From contig NZ_JADNRA010000018.1 of NCBI RefSeq assembly GCF_015709525.1, positions 1 through 64,000 on the forward strand: a DNA stretch of 64,000 nucleotides, written 5' to 3'. The position numbers were made by a program, and so were the translations under genes. This document shows positions 4,746 to 11,938 of this stretch, piece by piece. Source of the stretch: Methylocystis sp. L43 (GTDB taxonomy: Bacteria > Pseudomonadota > Alphaproteobacteria > Rhizobiales > Beijerinckiaceae). Numbering within the stretch: the stretch's first letter is position 1; each line of letters starts with the position of its first letter. The notes under the pieces were generated by a model. It made no database searches, was not told the origin of the DNA, and worked only from the letters and a program-made list of their open reading frames with translations.

Positions 4746-7700
4746 CTATATCGTCGCGGTCAGGATGCGCGCCGAAACTTCCATTCCCGGTCGAAGCGCC
4801 AGCTCGCGATTATCGACCTCGACGACGACGTCGACGGACGCGCCCGATTCTGTTCTGCGCGCCTCGGTCACCTTTCCTGAAAACGTCCGGCCAGGGACCG
4901 ACTCGCTTGTCACGACCGCCTCTGCGCCCGGCGCGATCGTCAGAGCGCCCTCCCCCTCCGCCCTCACATGAAGGCGAATGGTCTTGGCGTCGCCGATCAT
5001 GAACAGCGGCGCGCCCGCTTCAACGCGCGCGCCGACTATCGCCGCCCGCTCTAAGACGACGCCTGCGACCGGCGCGACAATCTCTGCGCCGGCTCGACCC
5101 GCTTCCGCCTTCGTCACTGCCTCACGGCGCAGAGCTACTTCCGCTTCGGCGCGTTCGACTTGCGCTTGCGCGCGCGCCAGAGCGCGACGCGCCGCGCTCA
5201 GCGCCTTGCGGCTGGCGGCGCGACGCCCTGAACGCGCCTCTCGTCTGTCGAGATTCGCCTGCGCTCTCGCCTGCGCGCGCTCGCGCTGCGCCAATTGCGA
5301 CTCCGCCGCCGCCAGAGCGCTTTTCTCGCGCGCCAGAGCGTCGTCGGAGGAAGACGGCGCGAGCGTCGCGCAAGTTTCGCCCTTCTCCACTTGCGCGCCG
5401 ACGTCGCAAGAGAGCGTCGCGACGACGCCTGCCGCAGGCGCATTGATCGGCGTCTGCGCGACCGGGGCGACCACGCCGCTGACGACGACCGTTCGACCAG
5501 CTGACGCTTCTTCGCGCGTGAGACTGACACGCGTGTGAAGATAGAATGCGCCGCTTACGACAATGATGAGGAGCCCCAATAAACCGGCGACGACAGGTCG
5601 GAACCAGTCGCCGGGCGCCACGACAGCGGCTGCGCCGGTCGCCGTCGCCGCCGGAACGCCGCGAGGCGCAGGAGCCCTGGCAGGAGAACGGAAAATGGCC
5701 TTCTCCACCTCGACGAGCAAGAACAGCACGACGCTCGCGCCCGCAATATGCCACCAGATCTCCGGGTCGAGCGGCGTGCTGTTGAACAGCGCCTGCATAA
5801 AGGGCGCGTAGGTGAACAGCGCCTGCAGCATGACGACGATGGCGACGGAAATCAGCACCGCGCGGCTGCCGAACAGGCCCTTCATGGAGAGTGACGACTC
5901 GGAAAGGAAACGCGCGTTGAAGAGATAAGCGACTTCGCAGGCGACGAGCGTGTTGACCGCGACCGTTCGCGCGCTGTCGAGTCCCATGCCCCGCGCCTTT
6001 TCCAATTCGTAGAGGCCGAATGTCGCGAGCAGCATCAGGAAAGAGACGAAGACGATGCGCCAGATGAAGTAGCGGGAGAGGATCGGTTCGCCCGACGGGC
6101 GTGGCGGGCGCAGCATCACGCCCTTGGTCGGCGGCTCAAACGCGAGCGCAAGGCCGAGCGTGACGGCGGTGATCAGATTGATCCACAGGATCTGTACCGG
6201 CGTCACCGGCAGAGTCTCGCCCATGGCGATCGCCGCGATCACCGTGAGGCCCTCGCCGCCATTGGTCGGCAAGATGTAGAGGATCGTCTTTTTCAAATTT
6301 TCGTAGACGACGCGGCCCTCATGCACCGCATGTACGATCGATGCGAAATTGTCGTCGGCAAGCACCATCTCCGCGGCCTCTTTCGCCGCCTCGGTGCCTT
6401 TGACGCCCATCGCGATGCCGATGTCGGCGCGCTTTAATGCAGGCGCGTCGTTGACGCCGTCGCCGGTCATCGCGACGACTTCGCCGCGCTTCTGCAACGC
6501 CTGAACGAGTCGCAGCTTATGTTCGGGACTGGTGCGCGCGAACACCGTCGTGGCGCTTGCCGCCTCGCCGAGCGCCTCGTCGCCGATCGCGTCGAGGTCG
6601 CGTCCGGTGAGCACGGAGTCCGGACGGTTGAGTCCGAGTTCGCGGGCGATGGCGATCGCCGTCGCGGCGTGGTCGCCTGTGATCATTTTGACGGACATGC
6701 CGGCAGTCGCGCATGCGCGGATCGCCTCGACGGCCTCGGGGCGCGGCGGATCAATCAGGCCGATGAGACCGACAAAGACGAGTCCGCTTTCAACGTCGCC
6801 GAATGCGAGTTGCTGCTGACCCTCTTCGGCTTTCTTGGAGGCGACCGCCAAAACCCGCTGCCCGCGCGTGGCCATCTCAATGATGCGGTCGAGCCAGCAG
6901 GCGTAGTCGAGCGGACGTTGCTCTCCGCGCACGTCCTGCTCCCAGAAGCACATTTCGAGCAGCCGCTCGGGCGCGCCCTTGACGAAAATGTAGCCAGCGC
7001 CGTCATGGTCGTGATGCAGCGTCGCCATGAAGCGGTGCTGCGACTCAAAAGGAATCTCGTCCGTGCGCGGTAGCTCCAGCGCCAGCTTTTCCCGATTGAC
7101 GCCGCCTTTGACGGCGGCGGCGAGCAAGGCGCCTTCGGTCGGATCGCCCTCGACGCTCCAGACGCCGTCCTTCTCGCGCAGCACGGCATCGTTGCAGAGC
7201 GCAAGCGGCCGCAGAGCCGCGGTCAGGTGAATGTCGTCGCGCACCACGACATCCTTGCCATTGCGCAGGAAGCCGCCGTGCGGATCATATCCCGATCCGG
7301 TCGTGTCGTAGGTCCCGCCGGAGATGACGATCGAGCGCACGATCAATTCATTGAGCGTCAGCGTGCCGGTCTTGTCCGAGCAGATCGTGCTCACCGCGCC
7401 GAGCGTCTCGACCGCCGGCAGTTGGCGGATGATCGCCTTGCGCCGCGCCATACGCTCCACGCCGATCGCCAGCGTAATGGTGATGATCGCCGGCAATCCT
7501 TCCGGGATCGCCGAAACCGCGAGCCCGACCGCCGCCATGAACATCTCGCCGGCGTCAAAATTCCAGACCAGCGCGCCAAAAGCGAAAACGGCGGCGCACA
7601 CGACCAGAATGACGACCGTGAGCCAGCGCGCAAACTCATCCATGCGCTGCAATAAGGGAGTGGTAAGCGTTTCCACCTCGGACAGCATGGCGTTGATGCG

Positions 7701-8369
7701 CCCGATCTCGGTCGCGGCCCCCGTGGCGACAACAACGCCCGTCCCCTGACCGTAGGTCACGACGGTCCCCGAATAGGCCATCGGCGCCCGATCTCCGAGC
7801 GGCACATCCGCCATGACCGGCGCCGGGTCCTTGTCGACCGGCAGCGACTCGCCGGTGAGCGCCGATTCCTGCACTTTCAGAGATTTGACCCGGATGAGAC
7901 GGATGTCCGCCGGAACCTTGTCGCCCGATTGGACATAGACGATGTCGCCAGGCGCGACGTCGGTCGCGTCGATGACGACGCGCTGCCCGTCTCGAATGAC
8001 CGTCGCATGGAGCGACAGCATGTTGCGGACGGCCTCCATGGCCTCTTCGGCCTTGCCCTCCTGAATGAACCCGATGACGGCGTTGATGACGACGACCGCG
8101 ACGATGACAGCGGTGTCGATCCAGTGCTGCATGAGCGCCGTGACGAGGCCGGCGGCGAGCAGCACATAGATGAGCACATTATGGAACTGCAGCGCGAAGC
8201 GCATGAGCGCGCTGCGTCGCCTGCCGGCCGGGAGGCGATTGGGGCCATGGACGGCGAGTCGCCGTTCTGCCTCAGCCTTGCTCAAGCCCGAACGCGTCAC
8301 GCCCAGGCGCTCAAGCGCCGCATCGGCTCCGATTGCCCAATATTCCTGACCTTCGACCGAAGGCTGCAT
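4746..8369 (-). CDS. P-type cation ATPase fused to a C-terminal HlyD-like periplasmic adaptor
   Basis: A 1207-residue fusion. Residues 1-895 are a complete type II P-type ATPase: an N-terminal cation-ATPase domain, TGES at 172-175, PEGLP at 289-293 in membrane segment 4, the phosphorylated Asp332 in DKTGT, KGAPE at 464-468, TGDGVND at 635-641, and ten predicted membrane segments. In segment 6 the motif WINLITAV (729-736) has Ala where calcium pumps have an essential Asp (NLVTD), so the ion is uncertain. A Pro/Ala linker (895-920) leads to an extra membrane segment (about 925-945). After it come two half-lipoyl segments (about 975-1003 and 1094-1125) around a long Ala/Arg/Glu coiled coil (about 1008-1090) and a beta-barrel tail, as in HlyD/RND adaptors. 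By topology the adaptor would be periplasmic. One uninterrupted frame encodes both parts, and typical homologues end near residue 900. Confidence 0.9.
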
Positions 8370-8525: not shown

Positions 8526-8936
8526 CTAGAAAGTGTCGTTTGCGATGGAGCGCACGCACACGTCGCTGACGGTTTCATCGGTCCGCTTCAATCCGATCCA
8601 CGCGTCGACCGCTGCCGAGTCGAAACCGGCCTCGCAATGATCGCCAATGCGCATCAGAGGGCGACGGATGAGCACCGGATCGAGCATCATCATCACCAAT
8701 GCTTCCTGCGGCGTGACTTTCTCGAGGTCGATTTCGCCGGATTTGATGCGCGGCGAGGCGGCGTTAAACCATTCCGGCAACGGCTTGGAGCCGAAATAGG
8801 GACGCAGGCTCGACGGGCTCCAGGATTCGCTCAGAAGGTCCCGAACCTCGACCTCATGTCCCGAGGCGCGCAGCAACGCCTTTTGCCGCGCATTGCCGGC
8901 GCAGCCCGGCTTTTCGTAAAAGATGACATGAGCCAT
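8526..8936 (-). CDS. ArsC-like nitrogenase-associated protein
   Basis: A 136-residue thioredoxin-fold protein of the ArsC/Spx family. The start MAHVIFYEKPGC at 8936 matches the family; upstream in-frame codons add unrelated sequence. Cys12 in PGCAGN is the position of the ArsC active-site cysteine, but the CX5R arsenate-reductase signature is not evident. The overall pattern (EVEVRDLL, PEWFN, PRIKSGEI) matches the subfamily named nitrogenase-associated protein, found in and near nif clusters of diazotrophs. No nif gene is in this window. It lies on the same strand as the P-type ATPase gene, 156 bases upstream of it. Confidence 0.8.
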   Translation of the reverse strand: MAHVIFYEKPGCAGNARQKALLRASGHEVEVRDLLSESWSPSSLRPYFGSKPLPEWFNAASPRIKSGEIDLEKVTPQEALVMMMLDPVLIRRPLMRIGDHCEAGFDSAAVDAWIGLKRTDETVSDVCVRSIANDTF

Positions 8937-9071
8937 CCGCGACCCCTCACATTGCGGCCCACCAGTCGCTGACCAGAGCTTAGCGTGAAATGGTGCAGCG
9001 CGATACGGCTTCAAGCGAACAAATTGCGAGCAGCGCCGGGGGCTTTCGCCGCTTCAGCAGGCAAAGGCGAA

Positions 9072-9794
9072 CTAGCGCGAGAGCCCCCAGACCATATTCA
9101 CGCGCGCCGAGAGACGCTGCAGGCCCGGACGCACAGGAATCTCGGCTCCTCCCGGCGGTGCGGCCGCCTGCGCCGCATAGGCGCGCGGACGCGCGTCGAT
9201 CTCCTCGAGCGGACGAATTTCGATGACGCGGGACAGCCGCAGTCCGGCCGCCTCCGCATAAATCTTCGCCTGCCGCTCCGCATCCTTGACCGCTTCGCGC
9301 CGCAGTGCGTCAAGCCGCTGCTTGGGATGCGCGATTTCGAAATCAATGCCTTCGAAGCTGTTAACGCCCTTGTCGATCAGACCGCCGGCGATCTCGCCGG
9401 CCTGTTCGACCCGCGTCACCCGCACGTGCAAATCGTTTCGTGCGCGGAAAAACTTTTGTGATGGCTTGGGTTTGCCTGTCTTGGGGTCTCGCTCTTCGGC
9501 GGTGACGGGCGTGAGCGTTACGCCCTGCGTCTGCACTTCAGCGTCGGGAACGCCTAACTTTTTGAGTTCGGCGAGAACCGCTTCGACCGCGCGCGCATTG
9601 TCCGCCGCGGCGTCGGCGGCCAGCGGCCGTTCGGTGACGACGCCGAACCGCAAGATCGCCAAGTCAGGCGCGACGTCCTCGTAAGCCTCGCCAATGACTG
9701 AGAGATTTGGAACGCCGTCCTTCAGCGTGTCGGCGTTCCCAGCAGCCGTGAACAGCATCAGGCCGAGCGAAAGTGCGAAGAGCAAACGAATCAT
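9072..9794 (-). CDS. SIMPL (DUF541) domain periplasmic protein
   Basis: A 240-residue exported protein. The start at 9794 is fixed by a clear signal peptide (MIRLLFALSLGLMLFTAAGNA) and an AGGA site just upstream. The longer open frame to 10808 is only a shadow of the GST gene. The mature part shows the SIMPL pattern: ISVIGEAYEDVAPDLAIL-like start, a long helix (ADAAADNARAVEAVLAELKKLG), then VQTQGVTLTPV and a C-terminal RLSARVNMVW strand. Members are periplasmic or outer-membrane proteins such as YggE, implicated in oxidative-stress tolerance. It is 135 bases upstream of the ArsC-like gene on the same strand. Confidence 0.88.
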   Translation of the reverse strand: MIRLLFALSLGLMLFTAAGNADTLKDGVPNLSVIGEAYEDVAPDLAILRFGVVTERPLAADAAADNARAVEAVLAELKKLGVPDAEVQTQGVTLTPVTAEERDPKTGKPKPSQKFFRARNDLHVRVTRVEQAGEIAGGLIDKGVNSFEGIDFEIAHPKQRLDALRREAVKDAERQAKIYAEAAGLRLSRVIEIRPLEEIDARPRAYAAQAAAPPGGAEIPVRPGLQRLSARVNMVWGLSR

Positions 9795-9926
9795 GGCATA
9801 TCCTAACAAAAGCTGCGCATCAAAAAGCTCATCAAAGCCGTAAAACCGCCGGCTAGCGTCGCTAACCCGAACCAGCATACAGAAGCGGCGCTCCATCGCA
9901 GCTTCGCGTCCGCTCGAAAAGGCCTC

Positions 9927-10610
9927 ATGCCCACGCTTTATCATCACCCGCTCTGCCCCCATTCGCGATTTGTCCGGCTCGTCCTGTCCGAATATGGAAT
10001 AGACGCAACGCTCATCGAGGAGCGCGTGAGCGACCGCCGCCCAGAATTTCTCGCGCTTGATGCTGCCGGCCGCACGCCGGTTTTCGTTGACGATAACGGA
10101 CTTGTCGCGCCCGGCGCCAATCTCATCGCCGAATATATAGACGAGACCTATGGCGCCGAACGTGGCGCGCAACGACTCCTGCCGCAGGAAATGGCGGCGC
10201 GCATCGAAACGCGTCGACTCGTCGATTGGTTCAACGTCAAGTTTTTCGACGAGGTCACGAACTGGCTGATCACGGAGAAGGTTTACAAGCGCTTTGCGCC
10301 TCCGGGCGGCGCGCCCGATATGGACGTGGTGCGTGTGGCGCGGGCTAACGTCCGGCACCATATGCGCTACATCGGCTATCTCACCAATGCGCGCAACTGG
10401 CTCGCGGGCGATCGTTTGACCTATGCCGACTTTGCAGCGGCCGCGCATATTTCCTGCGCCGATTATCTTGGCGATGCGCCGTGGGACGAGGACGAGGCTG
10501 CGAAACACTGGTATCAGCGCATCAAGTCGCGTCCCGCGTTTCGTCCGCTGCTCTCTTATCGGGCTCCAGGACTTACGCCCGGCCGCTACTATGCGGAACT
10601 GGATTTCTAG
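9927..10610 (+). CDS. Glutathione S-transferase family protein
   Basis: A 227-residue protein with an N-terminal thioredoxin-like GST domain: TLYHHPLCPHSRFVRLVL with a CPHS motif, a cis-Pro loop in GRTPVF, and a glutathione gamma-glutamyl binding region GANLIAEYIDE. The C-terminal all-helical domain follows (about residues 90-227), with LTYADFAAAAHIS, the helix that caps the GST fold, near residue 170. The CPxS motif is that of beta/omega-like or stringent-starvation-type GSTs, which often have thiol-transferase or regulatory roles. The substrate cannot be told. It is divergent from the SIMPL gene, separated by 132 bases. Confidence 0.88.
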   Translation: MPTLYHHPLCPHSRFVRLVLSEYGIDATLIEERVSDRRPEFLALDAAGRTPVFVDDNGLVAPGANLIAEYIDETYGAERGAQRLLPQEMAARIETRRLVDWFNVKFFDEVTNWLITEKVYKRFAPPGGAPDMDVVRVARANVRHHMRYIGYLTNARNWLAGDRLTYADFAAAAHISCADYLGDAPWDEDEAAKHWYQRIKSRPAFRPLLSYRAPGLTPGRYYAELDF

Positions 10611-10732
10611 GCGTCGCGGAGTGGTCGGCGGCGCCAGATTCGAAGGCTCGAGGGCCACTGTCGCGAGGTTGCGGCCGCGCTTGACAACCGTGGGGTGGAG
10701 TGAGGCAAGTAGCCTCAATACGGGACCATCGA

Positions 10733-11938
10733 ATGAGCGCACCCAACGAGCGCGAGAGCGAAAAGGTTGAGCCGAAGCTCGCCGAAGGCGGCGAACCATC
10801 GCCCGCACTGCAGCGTCGGATCCGGCAGCAGGAAATATTGGCGGAGCTCGGCGTCTCGGCCCTCCAAGGCGCTTCGCTCGATCAGCTGCTGACGGATACA
10901 GTACAACTTACGGCGCAAGGACTGGATGCGGACTTCTGCAAAGTGCTGGAGCTGCTTCCGTCCGAGAACCAGTTTCTGGTGCGCGCCGGCGTCGGCTGGT
11001 CTCGCGGCGTGGTGGGCGTCGCGAAAGTCGGCGCGGATCTCGACTCGCCCGCTGGATACGCATTGCGCAGCGGCCAACCGGTCATCTCTAATCACCTCGA
11101 AAAGGAAACGCGGTTCAGGACTCCTGAGTTGCTGCGTCAACATGGCGTCCGCCGGGCGATGAATGTGATCCTGCAGGGTGACGGAAAACCTTATGGCGTC
11201 CTTGAAGTCGACAGCCGGTCGCCGGCCGATTTCAGGGAGCAGGACATCGCTTTTCTGCAGGGCGCCGCAAATCTTCTTGGCATGGCGATCGAACGCGAGC
11301 GAGAAGAGCGCAAGCTAAGAGCGGCGCTCGCGCGCAACGAAGCGTTGCTCAAAGAAATGAATCATCGCGTGAAGAACAGCCTTTCCATCGTCGGCAGCAT
11401 GCTCCGCCTGCAAGCCAACGACGCAGGCGATGAGCAGGTGTCCGAACTTCTCAACGAAGCCTCTCACCGCGTGGAAGCGATCGCAAAGGCGCATGACCAG
11501 CTGTCTCGCGGCTCGGACGTCGATTGCATGGACGTTGGCAAATACATTGAAGCGCTGTGTCACGATTTGGATGAAAGCGTCGCGCAATGCGACGTGCGCA
11601 CCGAGATCGAAGAAGGGATCGTCATCGCAACCGACCGGGCCGTTTCGACCGCGCTGATCGTCAACGAACTCATCGCCAATGCGGCGAAATATGCTTACGA
11701 AAGCCAGTCGGGAATTATTTCGGTGAAGGTCGCGCGCCAGGGCGCTGAGAATTTCACTGTTTCCGTGCGCGACGAAGGCGCTGGAATGCCCGATGACCTC
11801 GACCCTCGCAATCGCAAAGGGCTCGGCATGCGGATCATTGCGTCGTTCACGCGTCAACTCAGCGCGACGATCGAAATAAAAAAGCACGAACCTGGCGCCG
11901 AGTTCATCGTCTCGATCCCTCTACGAGCGCCCTGCTGA
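10733..11938 (+). CDS. GAF domain sensor histidine kinase, HisKA_2/HWE type
   Basis: A 401-residue soluble kinase from the ATG at 10733; a GTG at 10700 is an alternative start. An N-terminal GAF domain (about residues 40-188) is followed by a short coiled coil and the dimerisation helix with [11 protein letters not shown], where His211 is the likely phosphorylation site. This Arg-Val-Lys-Asn signature is that of the HisKA_2/HWE class found in alphaproteobacterial light, redox and general-stress signalling. The ATPase domain has the N box [11 protein letters not shown] and the G boxes DEGAGMPDD and GLGMRI. There is no membrane segment or response regulator next to it, so it probably senses a small cytoplasmic ligand or redox state. 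queG follows after one base. Confidence 0.9.

Follow-up and report, generated by a model that had tools for sequence, protein, structure and literature searches.

Why should a cation-pumping ATPase end in the kind of adaptor that normally serves, as a separate subunit, in drug-efflux pumps? The question is raised by a gene in the window analyzed here, a stretch of 64,000 nucleotides of Methylocystis sp. L43 (contig NZ_JADNRA010000018.1, positions 1 to 64,000), in which a single uninterrupted frame with an ATG start encodes a 1207-amino-acid protein composed of a P2-type ATPase, a linker, one more membrane helix and a MacA-type adaptor module. Its parts are as follows.

4746..8369, minus strand: P2-type ATPase fused to a MacA-type adaptor, 1207 amino acids in one frame (frame and profile matches)
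5694..8342, minus strand: P2-type ATPase part, residues 10-892, with the motifs DKTGT, PEGLP and TGDGVNDAP (Pfam, NCBIfam)
5595..5693, minus strand: Ala/Pro-rich linker, residues 893-925 (about 32 residues), expected to be cytosolic (hydropathy)
5538..5594, minus strand: eleventh transmembrane helix, residues 926-944, positional counterpart of the N-terminal anchor of stand-alone MacA
4758..5507, minus strand: MacA-type periplasmic adaptor module, residues 955-1204, finishing in a beta-barrel
5406..5408, minus strand: Cys988, member of a cysteine pair, in the first half-lipoyl
5370..5372, minus strand: Cys1000, second member of the cysteine pair
5091..5357, minus strand: alpha-hairpin, residues 1005-1093 (predicted model)
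5211..5246, minus strand: hairpin tip, residues 1042-1053, basic, with R-xxx-R-xxxxxx-S replacing the RLS motif

In the ATPase part, Pfam recognizes Cation_ATPase_N (residues 10-76), E1-E2_ATPase (117-310), Cation_ATPase (390-474), Hydrolase (514-649) and Cation_ATPase_C (720-892), and the phosphorylation, actuator and nucleotide domains of a P-type ATPase are all present, with DKTGT and TGDGVNDAP in place. The adaptor part matches HlyD_D23 (972-1196; 59.1 bits, cutoff 30), HlyD_3 (1097-1195) and the NCBIfam model RND_mfp (TIGR01730) at residues 955-1204 (102.1 bits, cutoff 94.9). Behind the ATPase, hydropathy detects a helix (926-944); with the threshold used, it overlooks the transmembrane segments M5 and M8 and returns two false segments (521-539 and 1094-1112), so that the count of ten helices rests on homology to P2 models across almost the whole ATPase (residues 12-893). 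An AlphaFold2 model of residues 690-1207, computed from an alignment with 12 other loci, gives the adaptor predicted local distance difference test (pLDDT) values of mostly 70-94 and the order strand, half-lipoyl, two long helices, half-lipoyl, barrel; neither the transmembrane part of this model (pLDDT mostly <50) nor a model of the whole protein (mean pLDDT 39.7) is usable. The best structural match of the adaptor model in the PDB is MacA (Z 18.0, root-mean-square deviation 6.0, 255 residues aligned), which is also its top sequence match among solved structures. A preliminary description, made from the DNA letters, had read the frame as a ten-helix type II ATPase continued by a linker, a helix and a HlyD-like adaptor with half-lipoyls and a hairpin. 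The frame, both sets of profiles and the model confirm this layout and the completeness of the ATPase, the number of its helices standing by homology and not directly by hydropathy. The module lacks the C-terminal part of the membrane-proximal domain: the frame stops a few residues past the last barrel strand, and other fusions, like stand-alone MacA, continue in alignments for roughly 90 residues beyond it. At window positions 4746-4763 the protein ends 5 residues past the last aligned residue (1202), and 13 related fusions extend 10 to 39 residues.

An architecture this odd invites the suspicion that an assembly or sequencing error has joined two genes, and some copies in metagenome-assembled genomes (MAGs) are indeed split or truncated (L019, L024; loci and genomes carry our own L and G numbers). 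A contig search with the junction and the adaptor returned 15 loci, at 12 of which the fusion lies in one uninterrupted frame; the other three are L019, split over two frames, L024, which runs to the end of its stretch, and L025, a Bacteroidia adaptor with 24% identity. Four of the 12 intact loci are from named isolates, all Methylocystis, and the others from MAGs labelled Methylocystis or Alphaproteobacteria. Matches that cover both ATPase and adaptor, beginning no later than query position 130 and ending no earlier than 1119, occur in 28 of 39 Methylocystis genomes, 45 matches being listed, with one in-frame stop each in G006 and G007, and the fusion is also intact in the single-contig genome G013. 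Its uninterrupted recurrence across the genus, in several named isolates as well as in MAGs and further genomes, shows that the fusion is not due to chance, and an artefact, rejected by the conservation in isolates, has a negligible probability. Nor is the fusion unique to the window: whether it is conserved had been left to be checked, and 12 of 15 loci and 28 of 39 genomes answer that it is. The same genome holds a second fusion, on contig 24, 47% identical to the window protein.

Beyond the genus, a search of the family (298 genomes, best 5 candidates scored per genome, strict E-value) found matches spanning ATPase and adaptor in three genera, including Methylocystis, among the candidates scored, as well as adaptor frames whose length, up to 875 amino acids, exceeds that of an adaptor alone. 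In searches of the order and the phylum (397 and 398 genomes; E at most 1e-55, best 4 candidates scored per genome), the frames of >1000 amino acids among the candidates scored all came from Methylocystis, a provisional absence elsewhere. A 971-amino-acid frame from outside the family (G956), considered as a further fusion, was rejected as a merely extended open frame without DKTGT, and a search of viral contigs with the fusion alignment gave 76 pattern matches, none of which was confirmed.

P2 ATPases are not the only proteins to end in this module. Its hosts fall into at least seven classes, most of them proteins that move ions or take part in respiration. Twelve rows are P1B ATPases by their TPCPL motif, and the one scanned passes TIGR01525 and carries a hemerythrin domain (L098). 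Three are P3A proton pumps by motif, the two scanned scoring 963.7 and 1053.3 against a cutoff of 615.5; in one P3A fusion the ATPase is 81.6% identical over residues 22-828 to pumps on two Caballeronia plasmids, and the match ends before the module, the picture to be expected had an existing pump acquired the tail. For hosts other than P-type ATPases we examined 13 long-frame regions together with L100 and L173, further frames of about 500-560 amino acids lying outside this selection, so that the list is non-exhaustive. These 15 long frames comprise seven subunits IV of bo3 oxidase, two alpha subunits of F-type ATPase, three AHSA1 proteins, two copies of a four-helix protein and one plain adaptor. 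The CyoD-like subunit-IV hosts match COX4_pro in all four scanned cases (L100, L173, L176, L180), L175, L184 and L185 being assigned by sequence likeness. Both alpha-subunit hosts match ATP-synt_ab (L183:2233-4746, plus strand; L182:2791-5364, minus strand) and continue into an anchor helix and a Cys-pair module. They are flanked by frames that resemble, by eye, subunits R, B, E, F and G, an order that we take to be the arrangement of Na+-type N-ATPases; a-, c-, b- and gamma-like subunits were recognized there by eye. All three AHSA1 hosts were scanned, and L177, L178 and L181 consist of a cytosolic AHSA1 domain, an anchor helix and the module. The same helix and module follow a four-helix membrane protein in L174 and L186, the host part of the latter having no Pfam match, and the plain adaptor is a Cys-pair adaptor within a long frame (L179).

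Several arrangements stand beside these fusions. In the subunit-IV fusions the module is joined directly, with no extra helix, and cyoB- or cyoC-like frames were seen by eye upstream of several. A Methylocapsa polymorpha plasmid carries a P1B-adaptor frame with an apparent frameshift in the ATPase part, and on Methylocapsa and Methylocella plasmids an AI-2E gene lies near a P1B ATPase. Two three-part frames, from two genomes, join an AI-2E-family permease, a P2 ATPase and the adaptor in this order (L050:5172-9971, plus strand, and L051:6117-11003, minus strand; 1599 and 1628 amino acids), the permease domain having been called by Pfam on the first of them. A 1237-amino-acid P2-type ATPase at L061:5402-9115 (minus strand) has, by eye, an N-terminal TPR-like part and a membrane segment, and is without an adaptor.

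The variety of hosts allows a test of where the module lies. Ten of the hosts checked should have their C-terminus in the cytosol (four P2, one P1B, two alpha subunits and three AHSA1, the P3A and four-helix hosts falling outside this test), and in every one of them exactly one hydrophobic helix stands between host and module. In all seven subunit-IV hosts, whose C-terminus is presumably periplasmic, no helix has been added: ahead of the module there are only three helices, which we assign to the host itself. Because the presence of an anchor follows the expected host topology in these 17 checked hosts, the simplest reading is that the module must sit outside the inner membrane. The preliminary description had made the periplasmic location depend on the eleventh helix crossing the membrane; this helix stands at the position of the MacA anchor, and with the topology rule the module lies very probably in the periplasm. 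That the fusion is real and the module on the periplasmic side are points that we hold jointly with high confidence.

Where the module comes from is indicated by a tree of 115 modules, on which fused and stand-alone modules are separated by one change (Shimodaira-Hasegawa-like approximate likelihood ratio test [SH-aLRT] support 81), all 71 fused modules falling together, and host class changes 11 times among the fused rows. A smaller tree also needs one change between fused and stand-alone modules (SH-aLRT 80). Rows with <150 profile positions were dropped and near-identical fused copies kept; left out of the 115-row set were the duplicates L001, L002, L067 and L091, the split L019, short-flank duplicates among L033-L041 and L062-L091, and L059 and L060, which contain masked stretches. 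The 44 stand-alone rows lean towards MacA because other stand-alone frames found were left out. In a first tree, two supposedly stand-alone rows amid the fused ones proved to be the split fusion L019 and the subunit-IV fusion L100, and the nearest stand-alone relatives were two Methylocystis MacAs, one of them in the window genome and followed by MacB. Judged from these sequences, the module is a descendant of a Cys-pair MacA lineage of the MacAB type. The pair occurs in 71 of 71 fused rows and in 8 of 44 stand-alone rows, counts that, like those of the docking motif below, come from related sequences and are not independent events. In the set before selection it was present in all 65 fused frames and in 8 of 54 others, three of these eight being the fusions L019, L091 and L100. 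Other Cys-pair MacAs are encoded on Bradyrhizobium and Burkholderia savannae plasmids, followed by annotated FtsX-like permease pieces and, on the Burkholderia savannae plasmid, also by an outer-membrane factor. On an Azospirillum brasilense plasmid (L170:2989-7389), a MacA-like adaptor without the pair, an ABC ATPase, a permease and an mgtA P-type ATPase stand consecutively.

The constancy of the two cysteines brings in a first alternative, in which the tail would sense redox state or metal, the half-lipoyl pair forming a reversible disulfide or binding metal and thereby tuning the attached pump or enzyme. No feature of the fused modules is more constant, and the pair is kept even where the barrel has been lost: four aligned rows of the group labelled P2TSV, including the second fusion of the window genome, lack the beta-barrel and retain both cysteines. 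A hemerythrin-bearing P1B pump and a terminal-oxidase subunit are among the hosts, and genes for the small metal-binding protein SmbP lie within a few kilobases of two fusions on the M. rosea plasmid pGW6_1 (L009, L167). However, stand-alone MacAs, including the one next to MacB in the window genome, already have the pair, which may be only structural; we give this sensing role a rather small share of the probability.

A second alternative is that the tail has little function: it would be a mobile addition to C-termini, joined in frame, and cells would put up with it because it ends up outside, where it does not interfere. This would suit the many unrelated hosts and the host changes, at least 11 on the tree, one apparently frameshifted and one split copy, a rate of evolution faster than that of the host and the repeated erosion of barrel, hairpin (shortened in the P2TNG group) or membrane-proximal domain. 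Over six ortholog pairs, the ratio of nonsynonymous to synonymous substitution rates (dN/dS) ranges from 0.09 to 0.13 in the ATPase and from 0.28 to 0.39 in the adaptor; both parts are under purifying selection and the adaptor is less constrained. A dN/dS clearly below 1, the invariant Cys pair, the topology-correct anchors and the conserved chromosomal neighbours at 12 of 14 loci all argue against a tail of little function, which we consider unlikely.

The hairpin tip bears on a third alternative, put forward in the preliminary description, in which the pump would deliver its ion to a TolC-like channel. In such a tripartite P-type efflux system the tip would dock on an outer-membrane factor and the pumped ion would leave the cell. 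The motif RxxxLxxxxxxS of MacA, AcrA and HlyD serves for binding to TolC, which is weakened or, as in HlyD, abolished when the motif is mutated (PMC3391258). The window tip has R1042, R1046 and S1053 and lacks the docking leucine, so that the pattern is not matched. Nearly all stand-alone rows (43 of 44) have RxxxLx6[STA], against 8 of 71 fused rows; in an earlier set the counts were 47 of 53 for other frames and 7 of 60 for fused ones. The stand-alone MacA of the window genome keeps the motif. The tip has also become basic, with a mean charge of +2.98 in fused modules (65 rows, 6 of the 71 being excluded by the requirement of >=10 aligned tip residues), against +0.28 (36 rows) and -0.25 (8 rows) in stand-alone ones, and a stretch resembling RRAxSRKAL recurs in some P1B, P2 and P3A hosts. 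The hairpin itself is of normal length in the window protein, its 91 residues equalling the median of the stand-alone set, and the three P2DGV modules retain RLS or RLA; both points speak for a conduit.

The genomic distribution of possible partners is mixed. The window genome contains 30 matches to the OEP domain of TolC-type proteins; none is on the contig of the window, the 64-kb stretch included, and none is in the available flanks of the window-type loci L011-L024. A TolC-type neighbour of the window gene is rejected within that scope. Elsewhere, a profile built from the OEP frames of the window genome places such a frame near 5 distinct places among 56 loci (three P2TSV, one P1B and one P2DGV, none of the window type), and the expectation of a TolC-type gene beside fusions in other genomes holds at these places and is not borne out in the flanks covered of the window-type loci. 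All three P2TSV places also have a stand-alone adaptor frame nearby, and the P2DGV place adjoins an annotated MFS/HlyD set. The second fusion of the window genome (L030:5443-16043) is near an OEP frame and a stand-alone adaptor frame, and RND-like and PPK2-like frames were recognized there by eye. The tripartite arrangement has this scattering of OEP genes in its favour, along with the hairpin length and the three retained motifs. Against it stand a docking leucine missing from the window protein and from most fused modules, the lack of an OEP match around the window-type loci, the absence of the C-terminal part of the membrane-proximal domain, an F1 alpha-subunit host, which cannot feed a conduit, and a proton pump without obvious use for one. 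A cargo conduit specific to P-type pumps is inadequate, because alpha and oxidase subunits carry the same tail and the docking leucine has been lost; ion delivery to a TolC-like channel is unsupported in its simple form and appears improbable.

The architecture, its conservation, the common descent of the modules (with moderate support), the loss of the docking motif and the topology rule are results obtained by computation. From them we infer a periplasmic clustering or docking tail on pumps, whose probability, oligomerization, clustering and partner included, we place slightly short of even. A P2-type cation ATPase would have gained a MacA-derived module at its cytosolic C-terminus, in the order anchor helix, first beta-barrel strand, half-lipoyl, alpha-hairpin, half-lipoyl and beta-barrel. 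The modules would oligomerize through their lipoyl and hairpin domains, as MacA does, and so gather the attached pumps, which may then be held to a partner other than TolC, perhaps an acidic one, in the envelope or in the lumen of intracytoplasmic membranes. Methylocystis has stacked intracytoplasmic membranes, a possible site for such clustering. We favour this clustering tail because it accounts for anchors that follow host topology, for the number of different hosts and for a tip that has changed on a lipoyl core that is conserved.

Some observations weigh against it. The monophyly of the fused modules has moderate support, and the Cys pair, judging from its presence in stand-alone MacAs, is older than the fusions. 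With the barrel lost in the P2TSV group and the hairpin shortened in the P2TNG group, neither element can be needed everywhere, and 8 of the 71 fused modules still have an RLS-like motif. An adaptor that evolves about three times faster than its pump also suits weak constraint. Finally, neither the AHSA1 nor the four-helix hosts are recognized as pumps, and for this reason a clustering of pumps fails to cover every host. A broader proposal would treat the module as a general periplasmic coupler of Methylocystis and related genera, freed from TolC, through whose basic tip and Cys-pair lipoyl ring P1B, P2 and P3A ATPases, the F-type ATPase and bo3 oxidase might be joined into shared supercomplexes, periplasmic or in the intracytoplasmic membrane; we regard it as possible yet doubtful.

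What the pump transports was addressed from its ion sites. The following feature bears on them.

6165..6167, minus strand: Ala735 in M6, in the place of the canonical Asp, which unfused relatives also lack

We take Ala735 to correspond to Asp800 of SERCA. Glu290 in M4, Asn703 and Glu706 in M5, and Asn731 and Thr734 in M6 are present in the window ATPase and presumably match SERCA sites. The protein scores below the equivalog cutoffs for PMR1- and SERCA-type pumps (TIGR01522, 647.3 against 798.3; TIGR01116, 624.4 against 703.4), and with the M6 Asp absent as well, calcium is rejected as an established cargo. Among five unfused plasmid ATPases, four match the M6 motif (ITAV, VTAV, VTSV and VSSI) and one does not. 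Since unfused relatives lack the Asp too, its absence is a trait of the subfamily, independent of the fusion: the Ala noted by the preliminary description is there, and its status as a fusion-linked change is rejected. The fused P2 ATPases themselves differ in M6 (NLITAV, NMVTSV, NLVDGV, NLITDGPP and NLVTNGVQ), and therefore their ion sites are not identical.

Compared with known systems, the module is like MacA of MacAB-TolC in its fold, lipoyl halves, hairpin, barrel and anchor helix before the barrel, and differs in its covalent attachment to a P-type ATPase, the Cys pair, the missing RLS leucine, the basic tip, the absent C-terminal membrane-proximal part and the lack, in our search, of an adjoining MacB or TolC-type gene. 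The ATPase shares all P-type domains and motifs with PMR1/SERCA-like pumps, with near full-length matches to TIGR01522 and TIGR01116, but falls below their cutoffs, has Ala for Asp in M6 and continues into the eleventh helix and the periplasmic module. A precedent for extra C-terminal domains is given by P1B-5 ATPases that bear a hemerythrin domain, cytosolic and diiron-binding, at the C-terminus (PMC9388753); their known addition is cytosolic, whereas the one here is a periplasmic adaptor, and in L098 a hemerythrin domain is followed by the same adaptor module. Tripartite efflux systems, energized by ABC, RND or MFS transporters, use the same adaptor fold as a separate subunit (2021 review, PMC8277102), and the term P-type is absent from the available part of that review (300,000 of 747,799 characters). 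A 2026 review of adaptors (PMC13328181) does not use the term at all, and none of the words fused, fusion, HlyD and TolC appears in the main text of PMC10654040. Among the titles and opening lines of abstracts listed by literature searches, mostly of papers outside subscription, no P-type ATPase appeared that is fused to an adaptor or has one as a partner.

As described so far, periplasmic adaptors serve ABC, RND and MFS transporters as subunits of their own. Here a single adaptor lineage is carried by P-type ATPases of three superfamily branches, by an oxidase subunit and by an F-type alpha subunit, with anchors that fit the topology of each host. The function that we infer for this architecture would, if the tail does organize pumps, amount to a new principle for arranging bioenergetic complexes; tailed pumps and respiratory enzymes hint at an unrecognized way of linking pumps in the cell envelope.

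A scan of the 64-kb window for tRNAs returned 0 genes. Two neighbours are conserved upstream of the fusion gene.

8526..9014, minus strand: ArsC-like "nitrogenase-associated" protein (TIGR01616)
9072..10808, minus strand: frame of a SIMPL (DUF541) protein, the true start probably lying inside the frame

Both are common to 12 of the 14 loci with orthologs of the window gene, the exceptions being L009, a plasmid copy, and L022.

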